Positions 34,455 through 60,940 of a DNA stretch of 64,000 nucleotides are shown here, one piece after another. Positions within the stretch are counted from its first letter, which is position 1; each line of letters opens with the position of its first letter. A program made the translations under genes and the position numbers. The stretch is from Ecdyonurus torrentis (taxonomy: Eukaryota > Arthropoda > Insecta > Ephemeroptera > Heptageniidae), in NCBI GenBank assembly GCA_949318235.1, contig OX439131.1, positions 44,737,726 to 44,801,725 of the forward strand, in the 5' to 3' direction. Under the pieces are notes generated by a model, which was not told the origin of the DNA, ran no database searches, and was given only the letters and a program-made list of their open reading frames with translations.

Positions 34455-37400
34455 GTATGTACAGAGTAATGGAAAGGTTTTGTATCCCGGTCGGTCGGTC
34501 GGGGACCGGTGCACATCATGATGCACCTGATTATTTTCAACTTCTTTTTACTGTATGCGTACCGAAGCGAAGTGTCACCAAACACTTTCAATTGATTATG
34601 CTTATGGTAGTAGAAAAAAAAATATCTAGCATACAACATAAATATGCAATGCATACATTCAGTCACACATGAAAACGGGTATGAAAGGGAACGGAGTGCA
34701 GTTGATTGCATTTACATATTTATTCTATGCCCATGAAAGTTTTTGGTGACATTTTGGTATATCTTATTACATAAGAATGTGGTTTTAATAAATTGTGTAA
34801 TGCTTTTGGTGTTGAATAAAACTCCCTTATTTTATGAAGTTTTAGCAGATTATATAATAAATAATTTCTGTATTTTAATAAATGCATATTATTTTAAAGG
34901 ATGTGACAAAGGTGACGGAGTTGTACATAAATCGCCGAGAGAAATATCGTGGTATGTCTCCAAAAGTTGACCTGGGATTATACCAAATTGAACTTCCTAT
35001 GACAGGAAATAAACTGCACCCTATTCTCAACTATATTGAGAATTTTATTAAAGAAACGGCAAATAAAGTTTGTCTAATTCTACGTGACGTTAGTTACAAG
35101 TGAGTTGAAATTTAGCTCTTAGCTATATTTTTCATGTATAAATGTGGTATTGGGTCACCTTCTTGATCGAGTCATTATTTTGTTTGCGCCATCTATTCTT
35201 GTGGTTCAGAAATTTTGTGACCATGGTCGTACCACATCTGCATGACCTCATAGAATAAGTTTGTTTGAATTTGATCGATCTACCAGGGACTGTGAACAAT
35301 GAGTCCCAAACATGAGTGGAGAAGTGTCATTTAAAGTACGTGGAACCTTATGAGTTAAGATGCTCACAATGTTAAAAATTTCTTTCAACAACAGAGTAAC
35401 CCAATACCATACATTTCTGAAATCTTTATTATTAATCTCTGTCTCATTTCATAACATAATATATTGTTATGCAATATTGTCACTCGGATATGAAAACCTC
35501 GGATTAGACATTTGAGTGTTTTCGAAGTTTGAATCGCCATAAAAAAATTGATATCATTTTTGTAATGCACAATTATTTCTGGCCATATATTTTAATAATA
35601 TTACATTTTTATTTCAAGCAGTTTGCTCTCAATTCACACTGTTTTTGTACTCTGTTCAAAAAAGTGAAATTAAAATTATTTTTCCCATGCAACAGTAAGC
35701 CATAAAATTTTCTAATTAATATCATAGATTCAAGAAATGCTACTTATTCTTAATTAATGTACAGTTGAATTTTTTTTGCAAGCAACCCCTTAGCCAAAAT
35801 TTGCAAAAAACGGATCTTGCGTTCTATTAATGTTTTGAAGCTCAAAATTATTTCAGGGGTGCAATTTTGTATTCTTAAAAGAGTTCTTTGCAATATACAA
35901 AATTATTTTAAAATTAACTAAAATTTATGAATTAATTAACTTATAACCCCTGTATTTAAACAGAAAGCAGTACATAAAATGCCTGATGATGGCAACCAGC
36001 AGTAGATCAAAATTTTAAAAATTCATTTAACATCATGGAAATAAGATATATACATTATTAACAAAAGAACATTTTAGGGATTCAAAATTGCACCCCTAAA
36101 ATAATTTTGAGCTTCAAAGCATTTAATAGATTGCAAGATTTTTTTTTTTTTTTTTTTTTTGAAAGTTTTGCAAGTTTTGCAAGTTTTGGCAAAGGGGTTG
36201 CTTGCAAAAAAATTTCATTTGTACATTATAAATCAGCAACATTTCTTGACTCTGCGATATTAATTTGAAACTTTTATTGCTTACAGTTGCATGGGAAAAA
36301 TAATTTTAATTTCACTTTTTTGAACAAAGTTCAAAAGTAGGGTGTTTTAGTTTACTAATTGATGAATTGTGAGCCAATTGTTTGAGATAAAAATGTGAAA
36401 TTAATAAAATATATTTTCAGATATATAGGCTAAGCCGTAAGACAAAAATAATTTCAGTTTTTTGTGACTTTTTATTTTTGTACGCATTATGACGATTCAA
36501 ACTTCGAAAACACTCAAATGTCTAATCCTAGGTTTTGATATCCGAGGGACGATATGTATATATTTTTTTTTACTTGAGGTGTTTTAGTTTGATTTTACTC
36601 TTGTTTCATGTGCATAATCCAGATTGTGTTTGGATTACAAAAAGTCGTATGAGTTTGCAAGGAGAGAGCCTGCAAACGTTGAAGATGCCGTGCAGCTCTT
36701 ACTGCAAATTACTGCTGCTCAAGAGAAAGACTTACCTTTGTTGTCAACAAAAGTAGATTATGTTGAAACACTTATGGAATACCTCACTAAATATGGACAT
36801 TTCAGTGATCAACTGACAGGTGTGTATAGTTGTGAAACCTATATGTGTTTATGCTGTTCTCATACATAATAATGTGTTGTTTTTTTTTGTCTTGCAGGAA
36901 AAGACTACCGTTTAGGAACTCAAGTCATCAAGTTCAGAGCTGCTGCTCAACAAGAAATGGAGCTAAATCTTGATCGTCTGCTTCAGAAAAAGACAGATGA
37001 AGAAAAGATTGTTTCTGATAAACTAGATGATTTTAGTGAAAGGTAAAGTTGTTATTGAAAGTTGCCTACGTTATATTTAACTGACATTCTTTGTGCAGAT
37101 TGCAAGCACTGCTGGCCACATGTAAAGCTTACATGGCAGAGGAACCTCCTGAAGTGAACACAGAGTCAATGCAAGAGCAGGCACAATGCTCAGGAGAGCT
37201 CTGGGAGACACTACACCAGATGAAACGAGAGCTTGAGGTATACAGTTAATAGCTCATGTAATCATGAACTTAAGACTATTTTTTATTTTATTTATTTTTC
37301 CAGGGTCTAAATAGAGATGAAGTTTTACTAGAGTTGGACCAAACTCCATTTCCAAAACTTAGAGAACAAATTGAAGCATTTGAGGCACATTATTCTCTCT

Positions 37401-39757
37401 GGAAATTCACCAAACTATTTTATGAACGGAGAGATTATTGGTTTAATGGGCCTCTCAGCGAAATTGTATCAAATAAAGTTCAGGACGAGGTAGCCAATAT
37501 CAAATCAGAAGTATTTAAAGTTAGGAATGGACTTGCTCAGCAACCTGCTCACCAAGAGATTGCAAAGAGTGTGCTCAACAACATTGCAAATCTTAAAGAT
37601 CCTCTCAGACTTTTGGATGTTGTTTGTAACAAGTCGCTGTGTCCAAGGCATTGGAACAAGGTACATACATTGAATAACATTATATCATAAATGTGTTTTT
37701 ATCCACTAACAATGTCAAAATATTGTGTTCTGATGTGTGTGATTTATTTCATTTAATTTTCCTACAGATGATGATAGAAATTGGAACAGAAACTAATTTG
37801 GGTGAACTGAGCTGTCTACAAGAATGCATTGATGAAAATCTTGTAATGCACATCAAAGTAATGGAAGATGTTTCTGTTGTTGCAACCAATGAATTTGATG
37901 ATAAATTGAAGTTAGACATGATGAAAGAAGAATGGAAAGACATCCACTTTGAGTTGAATCTTTACAAGTAAGCACTCGTGGCGGGGGTTTGTTATGTTTT
38001 AGTTGATTTTACTGCAACTAATGTTGTATGTACTTGATATAGGGACACTGGGGTTAAGATTTTGTCTGCTGTCGACAAAATTCAAGAGACTCTGGATGAA
38101 CACTGTGCCAAGTCCCAGCGTCTGCTCAACTCTGTCTTTGTGGAACCATTCTTTGATGAGATGGAGGAATGGACCAACAGACTACTGAAGATTCAAAAAA
38201 TCTTTGAACTTTGGATTCCTGTAAGTTACTGGCAAGAAGTTATCATCAAAATAATACATACTGATGCTTTTTGTCACTTTGTTCTCAGGTGCAGCAGGGT
38301 TGGATGTATTTGCAGCCAATTTTTGGCTCTGCTGATATTCAGCAACAGATGCCTCAGGAAGGCCAGCAATTTTCTCGTGTCAACAGAATCTTTTTGAAAA
38401 TCATGCAGTACACTCAGGCACATACCCTTGTGATGGATGCCACAGAAAAGCCAAGCCTGCTGGAAGATCTGCAGGAGTGTAATTTACTGCTCACCACCAT
38501 CAAACAACGAGTCAATGACTACTTGGAGAAAAAACGCTCTGCTTTCCCAAGGTGAGCATCTTTTGCAAAATCTACCCAAAAATATACTATTATAGCATTA
38601 ATGCTATTTGTTACTTTTAGATTCTTCTTCTTGTCCAATGATGAACTGCTGGAGATTTTGGCAGAGACTAAAGAACCTCTGCGAGTACAACCTCATCTCA
38701 AAAAGTTCTTTGAGGGTATTAATAAATTGGAGTTCAATGATAATAAAGAAATTCTTGGCATGGAATCAGCAGAGAAGGAAAAGGTGACATTCCTCAACAT
38801 CATCAAGCCTGTGGAGGCTAAGGTAAGCGTCCTATAAGAGGTTTGTGTGTTCAATGTGTTTATGGCATGTATTTTTATCAAAGGGCCTAGTGGAAAGGTG
38901 GCTTCTTCAAGTAGAATGTGAGATGTTTGAGGCCATCAAACATGAGGTACTAAAGGCAGTTGATGACTATGACCAGACACCTCGAAGGGAGTGGGTGCAG
39001 AAGTGGATTGGTCAAGCTGTTCTGTGTGGTGCTACAGTAGCCTGGACAAGAGATGTGGAGGCAGCCATTGTTGCAGATTCACAGTCTGGTGGAGAAGGAA
39101 ACAAACTCAAAGTATGTTTTTTCTTTTGCTCTTTGCAATGTTTTATTATGTACTCTCAAATATTTATTTTCTATCTGACTTCTAGGAGTACCATGCAGTT
39201 TGTGAGAACCAAATTACTGAGCTGGTAGAGCTTGTTCGTACTGACCTTCCAGCTGGACTGAGAATCACTCTAGAAGCTCTTATTGTGATTGACGTGCATG
39301 GTAAGCCTGCTTGCTGCTTAAAGGTATATTATTGTGGCAGTGACACTTGAGTTTATGTGTTTTATTTGTGTAGCCAAGGACGTGGTGAAGCTATTGATTG
39401 ATGAGGGAGTACGGGGCATTGAGGACTTTGTGTGGCTCAGTCAGCTGAGATACTACAAAGGAAACAACACCATCACAGTGCGTATGGTGCAGACGGAGGT
39501 GCCATATGGCTGTGAATATTTGGGCAACACTCCTCGCCTTGTCATCACACCACTCACAGATCGCTGCTACAGGTACAGTATGCTCTCAGTTATAGCTTTT
39601 CTGGGCATGAATTTGTTGGTACAGTATATAATATTTAGCTACTCGGTTTGATATCTAAATTTCTGTAATAAATTTTACACAACTACGATAAAAAAAGTTT
39701 CTATTAATACCTTCTTGCCAACTGTAATGGAAAAATCTCCATCTATTCATAGCCATC

Positions 39758-39793
<36 letters not shown>

Positions 39794-42029
39794 AGTACAG
39801 TTTCTAATTTTGCCAATGTTAATTTTGCAGAACTCTGATGTGTGCCATGGACCTGTACCTGGGAGGTGCTCCTGAAGGTCCTGCCGGCACAGGAAAAACA
39901 GAGACCTCTAAGGATCTGGCCAAAGCCCTGGCCAAACACTGCGTAGTCTTCAACTGCTCTGATCAGTTGGATCATGTAGCCATGGGAAAGTTCTTCAAAG
40001 GAATCTCACAATGTGGTTCATGGGCTTGTTTTGATGAGTTCAACAGAATTGAGCTGGAGGTGTTGTCTGTGGTAGCAGCTCAGATCAACATGATTCAGGA
40101 AGCAAAAATCAGGCAGCAAGTTCGCTTTGATTTTGAGGGCAGCAACATCAAACTAAACCCCTCCTGTCAAGCCATCATCACAATGAATCCTGGGTTAGTA
40201 ACAATATAAGAATAATATTAATAATAATTAAAGAAAAGAAATAGAATACTGTTCTTTCTAGCTAAATTTTTAATGAAAAAAAAAGGGGATATTAAAATAA
40301 AAATGTATTGCTGTGTACTATAGGTATGCTGGTCGTCAAGAGCTGCCTGATAACTTGAAGAGACTTTTCCGTCCAGTGGCAATGATGGTCCCTGACTATG
40401 CTTTGATTGGTGAGCTGTCCCTCTACTCCAGAGGCTTCAAGAATGCCAGACCGTAAGTGTCATATTTCCATGATTTATTTTTGTAGATTGCTGCAAATGT
40501 TGTTTTTGATTTTATTAGGCTGGCTGTGAAAATTGTGCAAACCTACAAGCTGTGCTCAGAGCAACTTTCATCCCAGCCTCACTACGATTATGGCATGCGT
40601 GCAGTCAAGTCTGTGCTAACTGCAGCTGGCAATCTCAAGCTAGCAGACACATCTGGATCTCAGAGTTTAGAAGATGAGTCCAAGCTAGTTTTACGTGCTA
40701 TCATTGACGTCAACAGACCCAAGTTTTTGGCAGAAGATGTGCCTCTGTTTGAGGGTATTGTAGCTGACCTGTTCCCTGGTGTAGACTTACCACCACCAGA
40801 TAGAGGAGAGTTGCTTGAAGCATTGTATGTGGAGCTGAAGCTTAGGAACTTGCAAGCCACAGACTGGTACCTTGAGAAACTTATCCAGCTGTACGAGATG
40901 ATTCTCGTCCGTCACGGTCTTATGCTTGTAGGACCACCTTTTGGAGGGAAAAGTAGTGCCTTTAAGGTATGGTATTTAAATTAGTTTTAAATCTGTGAAG
41001 TCACTAAATTTATATTGCATTCTCACAGGTTCTAGCTGATGCTCTGCGTAAAATCGCAGTGAATCCCAACCAAAAGATGAATGAACATGGCGTGATTTTC
41101 AAAGTGATCAGTACAAAGTCTATTACTAGTGATCAATTGTATGGCTATGTAGATTCTGTGTCTCAAGAATGGCATGATGGTAAGTAACAAATATTTCACA
41201 AAGTATATTATATTGAAATTGACAATGAATGAACATTTTGTTTTCCAGGAGTCCTTGCTCAGACATTCAGAGAGTATGCAAGATCTGAGGCTCCTGAGCG
41301 CAAGTGGATCATCTTGGATGGTCCAGTGGATGCTGTGTGGGTAGAAAACCTCAACACTGTGTTGGATGATAACAAAAAACTGTGTCTCTCTTCAGGAGAA
41401 GTTGTTCAGGTACAAAAATACTTGTTTGGTGTTTTATACAGCAGAATTTTCCACTGCATTTTTATTATTATTATTTTCTTTTGTTATTATTATAACTATT
41501 TGTTGCAGATGTCCAACACCATGAACTTAATTTTTGAGACCGGAGATCTAGACCAAGCTTCCCCAGCAACAGTATCACGTTGTGGCATGGTATTCATGGA
41601 TCCTGGACAGCTTGGGATCTCCTCTGTGATGAAGTCATTTGTTGAGGGTCCACTGCACAAGCACCTCGAGGGCAATGAAGATCAGCTGCAACTGATACAT
41701 GATACAATGAAGTGGCTGCTGCCTCCAAGTTTGACAGCAGTCAAAACTTTATCTCGTTTTGTTGAAACTTCTGACATGCACCAGTTTGATGTGAGTGTAA
41801 AAATATGTATTTCTTTACAGTCCTGCATCTATTACCTTTATCCTTGTCCTTCCATAACCTTGTAACCTTGCCTTCTCACAGAGTTTTGCACGATTGCTGA
41901 ATGGCTTAATAATCATAAAGAAGGAATTTAGTCTTCAGTGGCTGCAAGGAGCTTTGGTCTTTGCTGTAATTTGGGGAGTGGGTTCTACACTCAGAGGTAC
42001 TCTCAAAACATTTTACTATTGCACTTGCC

Positions 42030-53365: not shown

Positions 53366-54826
53366 CAGTGGCGTTCGGTGCCTATTTTTAGAATTCAAAT
53401 GATTATAGCGCCGAATTTTATCGATAGATTTTTTAGAAATTTTGGAATTTTGTAGTCAGAAAGTCAAAATTATGAACACTATTTTTTATTTTTTTTTATT
53501 TTGAAGTTAAAGGTCCCAAAGGGCCCCTTAAACAGAAATATTGAGTTAATTTTTTACTCTTCTGATCAGAAAGGACACTGAAAATTAAAAAATCTAAAAA
53601 TAACTAAATTTCAGGATAAAAGAGTTTTGATTAAAGCGCAAAACCCCAAAATTGGTCTTGACTTGTTATGTGGGTCTAATTAGGGACACTTCAAAGTCAA
53701 AATATTTTTAAATTGAAACAAAAATTACAAATTGAGCTAGAAAAACGAAAACTATAAATTTTGTATTTTTTAGGGTGTCAATTTCAAAAATCACATTTTG
53801 GGCTTCCCACGTCTTCCCAAAAGGACCCAAAGGGGCCCTATTTTTTTCAAAAAGCAAGATATCAAAAATCTAACTGCAGAAATCGATTTGTAATGGCCAA
53901 AAACATAGGAATCAATATATTACACACCAAAATCGGCAAAACTCTCAATTTTTTATTTTTGGGGCCCTCCTCAGGTCATGCAATGTGCATGACCTGAGGA
54001 AGGCCCCAAAAATATTTTTTTAAGAGTTTTGCCGATTTTGGTGTGTAATATATTGATTCCTATGTTTTTGGCCATTACAAATCGATTTCTGCAGTTAGAT
54101 TTTTGATATCTTGCTTTTTGAAAAAAATAGGGCCCCTTTGGGCCCTTTTGGGGAGAATTGGGAAGCCCAAAATGTGATTTTTGAAATTGACACCCCAAAA
54201 AATACAAAATTTATAGTTTTCGTTTTTCTAGCTCAATTTGTAATTTTTGTTTCCATTTAAAAATATTTTGACTTCGAAGTGTCCCTAATTAGACCCACAT
54301 AACAAATCAGGACCAATTTTGCGGTTTTGCGCTTTAATCAAAACTCTTTTATCCTGAAATTTAGTTCGTATTCGATTTTTTAATTTTCAGTGTCCTTTCT
54401 GATCAGAAGAGTAAAAAATTACCTCAATTTTTCTATTTAAGGGGCCCTTTGGGACCTTTAACTTCCAATTACAAAAAAATAAAAAATAGTGTTCATAATT
54501 TTGACTTTCTGACTACAAAATTCCAAAATTTCTAAAAAATCGATCGTTAAAATTCGGCGCTATAATCATTTGAATGCTTCTTACCGGCCAAAAAAATTTC
54601 TAAAATTTTTTTTTGGCTTAAAACACGTTAAAGTATGCCTAGTATCCCTCATTTAAAATTTTCCAAAATCGGTGCAGTAGTTTTCTCAAAAATCGCAAAA
54701 AACGTGTTTCACTCCATAAGCGTAATGTTAAATTAGGGGGCCCTAGCTTTTTCCCGCGCTGCCTGTGATTGGTGCGACGTCACGGCCGGTAAGAAGCATT
54801 CTAAAAATAGGCACCGAACGCCACTG
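53366..54826. mobile_element. 1.46 kb hAT-like giant palindrome
   Basis: The ends are CAGTGGCGTTCGGTGCC and GGCACCGAACGCCACTG; CAGTGGCG is a usual hAT-type terminus. The element sits inside (TA)n, so the ATATATAT on both sides fits an 8-bp duplication but cannot prove it. The arms are about 615 bp and highly similar, meeting near 53984 (GGTCATGCAATGTGCATGACC-like centre). No transposase is present. Both arms encode the same 78-residue open frame on opposite strands (53761-53997 and 54207-53971), an artefact of the palindrome. A 227-bp MITE is inserted in the right arm only. It lies between the dynein and PCM1 genes. Confidence 0.9.
54574..54800. mobile_element. 227-bp MITE, copy 2, nested in the hAT palindrome
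   Basis: It begins ATGCTTCTTACCGGCC and ends GGCCGGTAAGAAGCAT. The left arm of the host palindrome has the empty site (TAGAATTCAAATGA at 53389-53402), while here the site is split around the element with AT duplicated on each side. The internal sequence matches copy 1 at 16240-16460. Confidence 0.88.
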
Positions 54827-55165: not shown

Positions 55166-58100
55166 ATGTCTTCCTCGGGACGCCCTACTGGCACAGTGCC
55201 CAAAGTGAAGAGTCGTCCAAATACAAGTTCACGAGATCTCGAACAACGACGCGCCCCTATTAGCAGTATGCCTAACAACCTGCAGGTTGGTATTACTACT
55301 TCATGTTCTTAAAATAAACTCGACTCAAAAAACTATTCTTGTCAAAAACGTTTTAGGCGAGCAGTCTCGAGTGGCAGCAATCTACCGCTCATCATCAGCA
55401 ATCTTCTTCCTCGCAATCTCGGTCCCGCAAACCAAGAAACACACGTTCACAACTGTCAAGAGACCTATTTGATGCTGGATTTGGTATGTATACAGGGTGC
55501 ATTGCAGTATCGGCTGATTTAAACTAACGGGAGTAAAATGCAATGTATGTACATAGTTCATACACATATCTACTGGTATGATAGAACCCGTCATTTTCTG
55601 AACATTTCTGGGTGTATGAAACGTTTTTTCAGTGGCAGAGTTAGTATATTTTATTACTGTTTTCAGATACCCATGTGTCTCATGAAAGATTGAGAGGCAA
55701 TTCAAGTGATTTCTCAAGCCGTAGCTTGCACAGTGATTTCATGATGGATAGTGAAAGAGTAAGTCGGTTTTTGTTATATCATACATACATTACATAAACA
55801 GTGTGATTAAAACATATATATATATATATTTCTTTTAAAAGTCTGCAGAAAGTGAAGCTCGCAAGGAAGCAAGTTCTTCCCAGACTTCCAGACGTCAGGA
55901 TCAACCACACAATACATTGCTAGATACAAAGAACAACATTTCTAAAATCGTACGTGTCATCATCGTAATAGTGTATGATAATACTAGTTATCGGCTGGCC
56001 GCAGGTATCGGCCCTTATGTTTTAAAATTTCAGCACAAAAGGAGATGCTTTCTGTGTTACGATTTCAAAACTCTCAATGGAACGTATTAGACAAATAGAG
56101 CAAACTTAGCTGCCTGATAATTACGGCAGTTTTCCGATAACTAGTAATACAATTGCCATATAAGACATAGCTAATACAGATTCTGATGTCTATATGTTGT
56201 GTTATAGCCTGATCGTAACCAAGTACTCAGTCGACTTAATCAAATTAGAGATTATGTGAAACAAACATCTGCCTTGATGGATTCTCTAAGAGGATCGTCA
56301 GACCCTGTAAGTAGAAAGATTTATCTTTATATCCTACTCTTATTTTTATAAATTTACACATTTCTTGTGAAGAGAGGAAAGGATAGTTGATTGCAATGCC
56401 TATTGTAATTCAATTTTAAGATACATTTAACTGGGGTGAAATTGAAACTCGGATCATATATGTTACTTTTCACTTTTCCCTATCTCACTACAGTCCGCGC
56501 CACCAAAGGATGCGACCAATAAGAGGACGCCTAAAAAATCCCCATTTAGTTAGCATTACCCTACCTCCTAACGACCTTGAGCGCTAGAGTGACTATTGGC
56601 TCGTAGCTCAATTTTGATTAATCACGAACATCTTAGCTGGCACGGAGTGTAGACATAGACACAGAGCACTTTAAAAGCAGGTCTGTGATTGGATTTCAGT
56701 TTCACCCCACATGTTTAATTTCACCTTGGTTGACTGTACTGCATCTGCAAGAAAATTAAATGTACATTTATTAGAAATTAACTTAATTAATTAAAGATGA
56801 CAGTATACATAATGAAATATCTTACTAAGATGATACTGATGTTTTAGCAACATAAATTAGAGGTGATCAAGCTGAGCAATATGAACGCTGATCTACGTGA
56901 CAGTGAGAAGAAACTGGTGAACCTGCTATCTACGTTGAACATTCTATCTTACGCAGAACCTGAGGTGGCTAATTGCCTGCGTGTTTGTGTGTTTGTTTGA
57001 GCTTGTTGCAGTGCTTGCTTGTTGCAGCTGCTGCACGTGTTTTATGTGTTTTAACTAACCTCTCAAGTATTGTTTACAAGCTCGAAACATTTTCAACTCA
57101 AGAAAAAAATGATCTTACATTTTAGTTTATCCCCTGGGACCTGGGACTCTACTTTAACAAAATTTACAAAAAAAAAAAAAAAAAAAAAAAAAAGGATAGG
57201 AGAAACCAGAAAGGGCTTTACCATAGTGAAGAGATTCCCATAGCTCTGTGAAAATATTGCTAGCATCTTGCTTTTCACGAGGCTGTGGGACTCTCTTCAC
57301 TATGGTAAGGCCCTTACTGGTTTCTTCTATCGTTTTCTTTCAAATTTATCATACCTAACCATGCGATGGTTCATTTCCTTTCATATTTCTAAAACTCTAA
57401 TAAAGCATTTTTATTTTTATTATTTTTTTTTTTAAAGAACATTCCTAGCAATAAAACGCATTATTTAAATTCAAGGAAAGTATTTTTTAATAATAATAAT
57501 AATAATAACATTAAAATAAAACTATAATATATTTCTAACCATATCTATTTTTACCTTAGTATGAAACCATTTAAGTGCATTCTAATTGAATTACAGCAAA
57601 ATTATTTACTATTTTTTTATCGAGTTGAAACAATTGAAAGCCTATAATAATACACCACATAATAATATCCAAACCATGCTAGCCCCTTGATTCCTGAATC
57701 ACTTGGACTTCTCCAGACTTGCTCAAGACACAAGGAAACTTGAAATTGAATTGCTGATTGTGACTACTGCATGTTGGTTGCCATATGTGTTGAACTAACT
57801 GTGTGTTTTTTCCTATCTAACTGTGCCAGCCACTTGACAATTGCTCCACACCTGAGCACCTTGAGAGGTTCACGCAGCTGCTCGACTTGGTCAAGACACA
57901 AGAGGACACTTGCTTGGGATTGTTCAAAGATGGAGTGCGTATCACATTGTGCCTGCATGTGCAAACATTTTCTTTTTACTTGCCTTGTGTAAAAACTTAA
58001 TAATTTAGTTATTATAATCACAAACGTCCAGCATATTATTTGATTGAGTTTGCTTAACTGTGCTAAATATATTATTTTAATGCTTAACTTTTGCATCAAT

Positions 58101-60940
58101 GCTATATAAATTTGTGTATGAATAATATTTAATTGATTACAGTAACAGTAACTGAAGTAAAGGACAGATATATTTTTTTTTAACTGATTTTTTTACTCTG
58201 ATTTTATATGCTAAAAATGCTGAAAGATCCTAAAACATAAAAATGGTTGGTAGCTTATTATAGAAATGAAAAACATGGGAGAATGATGAAGTTACAAGGT
58301 GTAGGATTCAAAGCCCGCTATATTTTATATTTTCTGCATCTTTATTATTTTATGCACATGAAAAAATCTATAAGCAACAATTTTCAATGCGGGGAAAAAA
58401 AAAAAAAAAAAAAAAGGCTGTCCTTTAATACATAACATTACAGTCATGATGGGTAAATCCATTTGAATATACAATTGAATTGATTTTATCATCCATGTGA
58501 CTCAGACTACAGTACTAACTCCAATTTTTACTTTGCTAGAGCTTAGCAGAGAGCCTGGTGTCACCACAAACTCCTCCCAATGGTGCAATGCCTAGAAGCA
58601 GAGGTCACTCAGGCTCTGAGGGATTTTCTCAGTCTCGATCCCGATCTTCATCAGAGGAACCTGTAAGTTTTACATTCATTGTAGTAACATTTATTTATAC
58701 TACACATTTAGTGTTGAACTTTTCAACATTTTTAATAATATATGAAAATTAGTGGTACTTAGAATCATTATAGCTCATAACATAACTATTTATTTTATTT
58801 TTTGAGAAAATTCAACTTTTAATGAATTCAATTTTTAAGAATACTAGAAGTATATTAATAATTTATTGCTATTTTTACTATGAATAGCAGCATGAAATTC
58901 ACTACAGGACATCTGAAATTTCCTGTTTCAAAATTTGTTAAATGTACTGTGTACTAATATTATACTTATTATTGAAAGATTGATAATTAAAAGATAGATA
59001 GAAACACATAAAAAAGAGAGGTAAAAGATTTTTGGGGAATGGGAGATAATGAGCTTAGTTCAGGGACCCCGCAAAAGAGAGAGAAAAATATTCAAACCCA
59101 GGCCGAAATATGACGCATAGTGCGCCGTATGCACGGTGGTATGAACTAGAAGCTCGTAAGCAAATAGAGATTAGTTAATTAATTAAAGGATTTTTTTGGC
59201 TTACAAAAGTAAATTAATTAGCAAAAACATCACACCAAAATATTCAGCACGACTCGTCGATTATTTTTCCCTTTTCCTTTTTGTGTTGTCCATCTTTACC
59301 CTCTATTTTATCCCACTATCTTTCTATTTTTCTACTCCCTGGCTTACATAAAGTTTGTTTTTTGGTATATTCGTTGCATTTCAAATATTTGGCGCGCCTC
59401 GGAGTAGCAGCCAATCCGCGGTGGAAGCTAAGCGTCCACCGAGGCTGCGGGTATATAAGGCCGCGCAGTCTATGCTACTCCAGCAGTCGATCTCTGACCA
59501 GGGCTACTCTCTGGTAGATCACTGCTTCTCTCTCCTCACCATGCTGATGAGGCCCAGTAGGCCGAAACAGCGTTGTCCATGGTTAGAGAGAGTCGCGCCG
59601 AATATTTTGGTGTGACGTTTTTGCTAATTAATTTACTTTTGTAAGCCAAAAATAATCCTCTAATTAATTATCTAATCTCTATTTGCTTACGAGCTTCTAG
59701 TTCATACCACCGTGCATACGGCGCACTATGCGTCATATTTCGGCCTGGGTTTGAATATTTTTCTCTCTCTTTTGCGGGGTCCCTGAACTAAGCTCATTAT
59801 CTCCCATTCCCCAAAAATCTTTTACCTCTATTTTGTATGTGTTTCTATCTATCTTTTAATTATCAACCTATCGCAAAGTCCATTTTTTGCTAATTATATA
59901 TTTATTATCATTGAAAGAGTGAATAATTGGGTAAATGAATAACAAATAAAAGTGTTTCAGAATGAATAAAAAAAAATGCAATCATAAACTAGAGGATCTA
60001 ATTACTGCTAAATGCCAGTAAATATAAAATTATTTGGCTTATATTTTGTGTTTTTCACAGAGATCACTGCCTACTGCTGCCCAGTATGCCAAGCACCAGG
60101 AGCTGAAATTGAAAGTGGAGGAAAGTCAGAAAAAAGTAAGTGTACCCCCCCCCCCCCCCCACCCCCAATAGTTAACAGAATTATCAGCAAGGGTCTTACC
60201 ACAGTGGAAGTTCTATGGAGAGGTGGAGGTCTTTCGTGGCACATTGTTTTGTTATAAAAAAGTTTATTTCAGAACTTTTGTTATAACAAAATACTGTGTC
60301 AATTAAGACCTCGACCTCTCCATAGAAATTCTACTTTGGTAAGGCCCTTGCTGGTAATTCTATCTTTTTCTTTATTATTGATCTTAACCACGATGGTTTT
60401 TTCCTTAAATTGATTGTTGTATGCATACTACAAATTAATAAGTTTAAAAAAATATTTAGAAAATAGTTGGTAGAGATTAGAGCACGTTGAATTGAAAATT
60501 AATAAAACGCGAAAATTCTCTAATTTAAATAGTAAATTGGGACTAGGGATCAAATATTCTAGCTTGAGCTAGTTAAAAAGTAGACGTTAAAGGGATGGAG
60601 GTATTTGACACTATACCTCCATCCCTTTAACGTCTACTTTTTAACTAGCTCAAGCTAGAATATTTTATCCCTAGTCCCAATTTACTATTTAAATTAGAGA
60701 ATTTTCGCGTTTTATTAATTTTCAATTCAACGTGCTCTAATCTCTACCAACTATTTTCTAAATATTTTTTTAAACTTATTAATACTAACCGCGATGGTTT
60801 TTTCCTAATACGCGTATGCATACTACATACTAACATAGAGGGGTCTGAGGTGCTGTATTTTCAGATATTGATTATTGTCAATTGCCATCAGCTACCTATT
60901 GTGGCTTCTTATTTTTTCCTTCTCTTTTTAAGTTAATGCA

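Follow-up and report, generated by a model that had tools for sequence, protein, structure and literature searches.

Conserved intronic hammerhead ribozymes, HH9 and HH10, are known from amniotes, and hammerheads in Penelope-like elements (PLEs) have reportedly been described in two primary papers. Metazoan retrozymes measure ~170–400 nt according to PMC7229834, and PLEs have been proposed as helpers of animal retrozymes in PMC7229834 and PMC7761336. The latter adds that retrozyme repeats contain no motif revealing their helper, that promoters seem to be absent from them and that the role of the PLE hammerheads is a mystery. For an anole PLE, PMC11167929 reports two internal start sites of reverse transcription, which delimit a tail, as well as cutting and extension of both DNA strands. 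Rotifer Penelope elements, as presented in PMC3846280, show inverted pLTRs, a tail optionally carried by one of them, and target-site duplications (TSDs) of 8–10 bp.

The window analysed here, a stretch of 64,000 nucleotides from the mayfly Ecdyonurus torrentis, contains a hammerhead-bearing repeat unit that is very probably a promoter-bearing, retrozyme-like, non-autonomous and non-coding retroelement moved by a Penelope-type enzyme. With metazoan non-LTR retrozymes it shares a non-coding tandem unit, a type I hammerhead with a weak helix III, many dispersed copies, and TSDs longer than 4 bp. It differs from them in length, since the unit measures about 675 nt instead of ~170–400 nt, and this size counts against the retrozyme-like reading. 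Unlike the retrozymes described in PMC7761336, it carries CCAAT and TATA boxes and shows PLE end signatures. PLEs and their pLTRs resemble the unit in having a TATA box (in the unit accompanied by CCAAT, as in PLE1 of this genome), a hammerhead near the start, partial tandems, two outward ends of which one carries a tail, an inverted head-to-head copy and a TSD of 8–15 bp. In contrast to PLEs, the unit holds in its six frames no open reading frame for a PLE-type reverse transcriptase with GIY-YIG, such as the one present in PLE1, and no relic of, or similarity to, PLE coding sequence was found in a six-frame comparison. Neither was any similarity found between the unit and the coding or terminal sequences of PLE1 and PLE2, which is a point against its movement by a PLE.

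The original prediction, a type I hammerhead inside an intron of a putative PCM1 gene, was correct in its anatomy, and its coordinates, stems and cut site all agree with our reading of the sequence (Table 1). In order, the motif consists of ACCATG, CTGATGA, GGCC-CAGTA-GGCC, GAA-A, CA-GCGT-TGT, C and CATGGT, with the cleavage triplet GTC at 59575–59577 and an outer helix, CTCTCTC/GAGAGAG, that extends stem I across an internal loop CTC/TA. The core CUGANGA...GAAA...NUH is present, all three helices can be paired by eye, and it is stem I that is open, as in type I. A descriptor made of CUGANGA, a 4-bp stem II, GAAA, a 3-bp stem III and a stem I of at least 5 bp, with G-U pairs allowed, matched this motif alone on the two strands of the window, and it matched nothing in 60 windows simulated to the same dinucleotide composition. 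The motif is a genuine hammerhead sequence motif. The covariance score that had been proposed as a check on it came out unfavourably: no match in the window reached an Rfam gathering threshold, and in a permissive scan of 2.1 kb the top clan match, Hammerhead_HH9 (RF02275), covered the full model length at 27.6 bits (E 3.5e-4), under the gathering score of 52. In a 28-kb Rfam scan, two other copies of the element (L013 and L017) showed no hammerhead match at E <= 0.1. Folding of 59520–59600, likewise suggested beforehand, gave stems I and II probabilities of 0.70–0.99 and did not bear out stem III, which stayed at 0.0 in every folding context tried. For 59482–59600, the minimum-energy structure is 4.3 kcal/mol more stable than the strict active fold, and the probability of stem I drops to about 0.1 in longer transcripts. 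Self-cleavage is plausible as a prediction from the motif.

Low divergence around the hammerhead in the first sample of copies was dropped as evidence of conservation, because those copies had been picked by that very stretch. In 23 copies chosen without regard to the ribozyme, divergence of the hammerhead was 1.9% (the counted stretch being off by one base), not clearly under the 1–6% of its neighbours, and there was no clear excess of conservation. The exact majority sequence occurred in 6 of these 23 copies, and a position that we take to be a core G was altered in four. For these reasons, constraint on the hammerhead is not demonstrated.

Table 1. Features of the insertion and its host intron (positions in the window)
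Feature	Position	Strand	Basis
Host intron (GT/AG) of a multi-exon gene, putatively PCM1 according to the original prediction	58663..60060	+	Splice sites read from sequence
Left target-site duplication copy, ATTGAAAGA	58971..58979	+	Flanking-repeat comparison
Partial inverted unit, reverse complement of about 59590–59866, short A end outward	58980..59255	-	Alignment
Sense-orientation unit ending at the long B end	59256..59909	+	Alignments among copies
CCAAT box, 41 nt upstream of TATA box (putative promoter)	59411..59415	+	Sequence
TATA box, TATATAAGG (putative promoter)	59452..59460	+	Same 9-mer in PLE1 pLTR
Predicted hairpin between guessed start site and ribozyme	59482..59526	+	Predicted fold
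Type I hammerhead ribozyme motif, predicted cut after C59577	59528..59592	+	Sequence, descriptor, permissive Rfam, folds
Tail, between the short 3' end (A, about 59865) and the long one (B, about 59905)	59866..59909	+	End mapping across copies
Right target-site duplication copy, ATTGAAAGA	59910..59918	+	Flanking-repeat comparison

What the original prediction overlooked is that the motif forms part of a high-copy unit whose two inverted copies stand head-to-head between flanking duplications, and that the genome contains PLEs, of which one also bears a hammerhead. The unit spans about 59256 to about 59905, has a tandem period of 675 nt at one locus (L009) and presents, in this order, the CCAAT box, TATATAAGG, the hairpin, the hammerhead and a 3' part, with a transcription start predicted near 59482. 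A 131-nt probe around the hammerhead gave at least 41 matches with 98–100% identity on 11 contigs (40 best of 258 candidates scored), and two probes downstream of it gave at least 46 (434 candidates) and at least 45 (517 candidates), again with the 40 best scored each; in all these counts, some matches are the two arms of one insertion. Since dozens of copies were seen and the first-look candidates ran to hundreds, the genome likely contains hundreds of copies.

The window copy is a sense unit joined head-to-head with a partial inverted unit, with ATTGAAAGA on both sides; its arms are 97% complementary over 224 nt, and the arm start given by BLAST, 58974, overlaps the left TSD. We compared 51 insertions, namely the window copy and 50 further loci, 20 of them chosen on the ribozyme and 30 on 59640–59860. 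Head-to-head pairs with both 3' ends outward accounted for 31 insertions, a single outward 3' end was present in 20, and tail-to-tail pairs were absent from the 51. Flanking repeats of at least 8 bp accompanied 30 of the 51 insertions, against 10 of 1020 shifted controls; these duplications were mostly AT-rich, measured 11–15 bp in 24 of the 30 and were of low complexity in a few. No poly(A) was found at the element 3' ends compared alongside the flanking repeats. At the junctions of the 31 head-to-head pairs, the arms overlapped by 0–2 nt in 19 and by 4–9 nt in six, and were separated by a gap of 5–21 nt in six.

The outer 3' ends cluster in two zones, A near 59865 and B near 59905, with some 40 nt between them; the limits of these zones were set after inspection of the first 51 insertions. 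Among the 31 two-ended insertions, 22 combine an A with a B end, a BB pair occurs once and an AA pair never, and in eight one end or both fall in neither zone, so that the combination is AB in 22 of the 23 insertions with both ends within the zones. The other end is B in five of those eight, which are unexplained and count against the reading of an element moved by a PLE. The 20 single-ended insertions comprise 13 B and 7 A ends. A third sample, made up of eight later loci chosen on the B (3') end, contained a second arm in five, with the second end in zone A in all five (in one within 9 nt of the fetched edge). B arms often appear to be the longer ones. A tail on one outward end, an inverted head-to-head copy and a TSD, the marks of the PLE mode of insertion, are all displayed by these copies, and the insertion scars of the element are Penelope-like.

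A PLE reverse-transcriptase query returned at least 150 matches in this genome (the 150 best of 496 candidates), with many open frames of 846–873 aa; among the matches listed, many are head-to-head neighbours. The autonomous PLE1 (L063) has an 873-aa open frame with RVT_1 at 1.6e-11 and a GIY-YIG match at 0.0088, below Pfam's cut-off; its named relatives include a protein from Anolis (anole) with 42% identity, and a search for PDB relatives found none. The 213-bp pLTR of PLE1 carries CCAAT and TATATAAGG 43 nt apart, a spacing of 41 nt in the window unit. It also contains a minimal hammerhead, CTGAAGA...GAAACGTC, which by eye has one extra base ahead of stem II; stem III of the unit's hammerhead (3 bp plus loop) is longer than the ACGU of PLE1. 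Two PLE1 insertions are visible at both ends, each with one A-like and one B-like end 32–33 nt apart, and the repeats flanking them, read from the letters, measure 13 and 12 bp. Because PLE1 in the same genome bears the same marks as the element, a PLE protein is most likely its mover. PLE2 (L067, G000:C12:32155300-32158900) consists of 846-aa frames in a head-to-tail array with a period of 2775 nt, and 826 bases one period apart are identical.

A GIY-YIG model search of the genome gave two matches (L029 and L030) and missed the PLEs, which were found only by the PLE reverse-transcriptase query. The L029 match was considered as a PLE and rejected, its 1496-aa frame being unlike a PLE by eye. 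At this locus (G000:C10:48229001-48239000) the 1496-aa GIY-YIG frame lies beside a 317-aa frame, translocase/helicase-like by eye, a pair that would be unusual in an animal. A further repeat family with a minimal hammerhead (L031:4779-5221, and L032 near 4987) likewise places a hammerhead in a short head-to-head repeat (L031), and it differs from the unit in its sequence and in a stem III of 2 bp by eye. Rfam Hammerhead_3 scores for the L031 repeat were 33.4 and 33.3 bits, under the threshold of 48.5.

Other features of the window were recorded alongside the insertion. Exons of a dynein heavy chain gene (DHC_N2, AAA_6) occupy 37274–40981 on the + strand. The intron next to the host intron contains a near-perfect 171-nt palindrome (60434–60604 and 60613–60783, 99% complementary, 8 nt spacing). 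Inverted repeats at 60177–60361 (85-nt arms) and 57186–57340 (69-nt arms) have a TGGTAAGGCCCTT stretch in common; the former gave sub-threshold plant miRNA matches in Rfam, most likely chance matches owed to its hairpin shape. From both strands, the short inverted repeat at 53758–54210 reads a nearly identical open frame (ILYFLGCQFQKSHFGLP...).

At ten diagnostic sites, the arms of the same insertion were discordant in 6 of 146 comparisons, against 39.9 expected at random (L043 and L045 being excluded). Because these sites agree, both arms of an insertion are taken to derive from a single RNA or a single source copy. Overall arm-to-arm identity is unremarkable in many insertions, and the 97.0% of the window arms is equalled by 40% of comparisons with other insertions. 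Five of 82 arms were excluded from the count made in aligned positions: L012 and the plus arm of L043 contain a foreign gap, while the two arms of L045 and the minus arm of L062 have either a gap or an odd 3' end. More than one unit was spanned by 16 of the 77 arms that remained, in one case by only 2 positions, and the template of such arms would therefore have been multimeric or circular.

The 5' ends of the arms bear on the fate of the template RNA: were it cut by the hammerhead, cDNAs would be expected to end near 59578. In aligned positions, 12 of 42 arms at risk ended at unit positions 326–361, the 36 nt past the cut, against 22 of 249 in the next eight bins (p 0.0009), and on the second lap 3 of 6 ended in the same bin; counted by arm length, the figures are 10 of 41 against 23 of 263 (p 0.006) and 4 of 6. 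No 5' end falls at the hammerhead cut itself: first-lap ends in the bin lie at 332–359, and the nearest ends are those of L021 at 322 and L043 at 320. The excess of cDNA 5' ends just downstream of the cut is only suggestive, because the bin was chosen post hoc, after the data had been viewed, because no end lies at the cut and because some stretches closer to the 3' end have equally high hazards (5 of 17 at 506–541). Alternatively, stalling of the enzyme by the folded ribozyme could cause 5' ends at this place.

Other origins of the motif and of its inverted arms have to be weighed against this reading. A ribozyme belonging to the host intron, which like the intronic HH9 and HH10 would cut the pre-mRNA and tune its processing, would fit the sense orientation of the hammerhead within the intron of a + strand gene as well as its best Rfam clan match, HH9. 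It is nevertheless rejected as highly unlikely, since the motif occurs in at least dozens of near-identical copies on 11 contigs and lies inside an insertion with flanking duplications. The original prediction had allowed for cutting of either the intron or the element RNA; the element part stands, as the motif sits in a high-copy unit, and nothing points to an intron-cutting function, although cutting of the intron RNA is possible because of the sense orientation. Taken alone, the window copy, with its long and almost wholly complementary arms, would also fit a MITE or a cut-and-paste DNA transposon that has terminal inverted repeats of ~280 bp and holds a hammerhead by chance. However, fixed terminal inverted repeats on every copy are not what the insertions display: arm lengths vary from one to another, as do 5' ends, only one outward 3' end is found in 20 of 51, tandem units exist too, and in 22 of 31 pairs the two outer ends are offset by about 40 nt. 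The transposon reading is largely refuted by these observations and keeps scarcely any credibility.

Granted a retroelement, its helper could have been a LINE or another retroelement instead of a PLE. An RVT_1 profile gave at least 150 matches in the genome (the 150 best of 2131 candidates, mixed types possible), and LINE versus PLE is left undecided in PMC7229834; yet the two 3'-end zones, the mostly 11–15-bp, AT-rich TSDs and the head-to-head arms all match PLE1, and the absence of poly(A) from the element 3' ends compared also speaks against such a helper, which we consider improbable. The pairing of arms might, on the other hand, arise from a single cDNA that starts at B, folds, copies itself and stops near A. 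Such a snap-back would account for the same diagnostic variants on both arms; the partner of a B-zone end lies at A or further upstream, except in L025 (667/654) and L041 (656/641), and self-priming has been argued for rotifer Penelope elements in PMC3846280. Against it, new starts were observed in vitro at both sites on both DNA strands (PMC11167929), the junctions, with an overlap of 0–2 nt in 19 of 31 pairs and a gap in six, offer scant sequence for self-priming in most pairs, and no reason is given for a stop at one defined site, A. We regard the snap-back as possible, if rather doubtful.

For the element moved by a PLE enzyme, which we prefer, the following course of events can be proposed. 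Transcription would proceed from the internal Pol II-type promoter, and the hammerhead would cut the transcript into unit-length RNA, perhaps giving circles, which the PLE enzyme would use in trans. As the genomic copies support, reverse transcription would start inside the element RNA at two sites, A and B, about 40 nt apart, and would continue toward the RNA 5' end over variable distances, sometimes beyond one unit. Two cDNAs from the same RNA source, one started at A and the other at B, would often be placed head-to-head at one target, which would come to be flanked by a duplication, mostly AT-rich and of 11–15 bp. In the window, the element would have inserted in sense into the intron of the + strand gene. 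A stronger version, which we put forward tentatively and hold to be unlikely on present evidence, is that each insertion copies one RNA twice, from two fixed starts, onto both sides of a staggered break, and that many cDNAs stop just past the cut, so that the template would already have undergone cleavage in vivo by the ribozyme it carries. If this were true, it would link hammerhead cleavage directly with the PLE type of insertion and would reveal to which class the helper of animal retrozymes belongs.

Retrozymes and PLE hammerheads have already been published; what is new here is the occurrence of promoter boxes and PLE-type ends on a retrozyme-like element. In the literature surveyed, including the available portion of PMC3846280, we found no statement of a strict rule of one A and one B end per pair, which may be published elsewhere; such a rule is a sharp constraint on the mechanism of PLE insertion. 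Since this family combines promoter boxes with PLE-type insertion marks in a genome that also contains PLEs with long open frames, it offers a single system for testing which helper moves it and what its ribozyme does, and the element is a useful test case for the spread of ribozyme elements.
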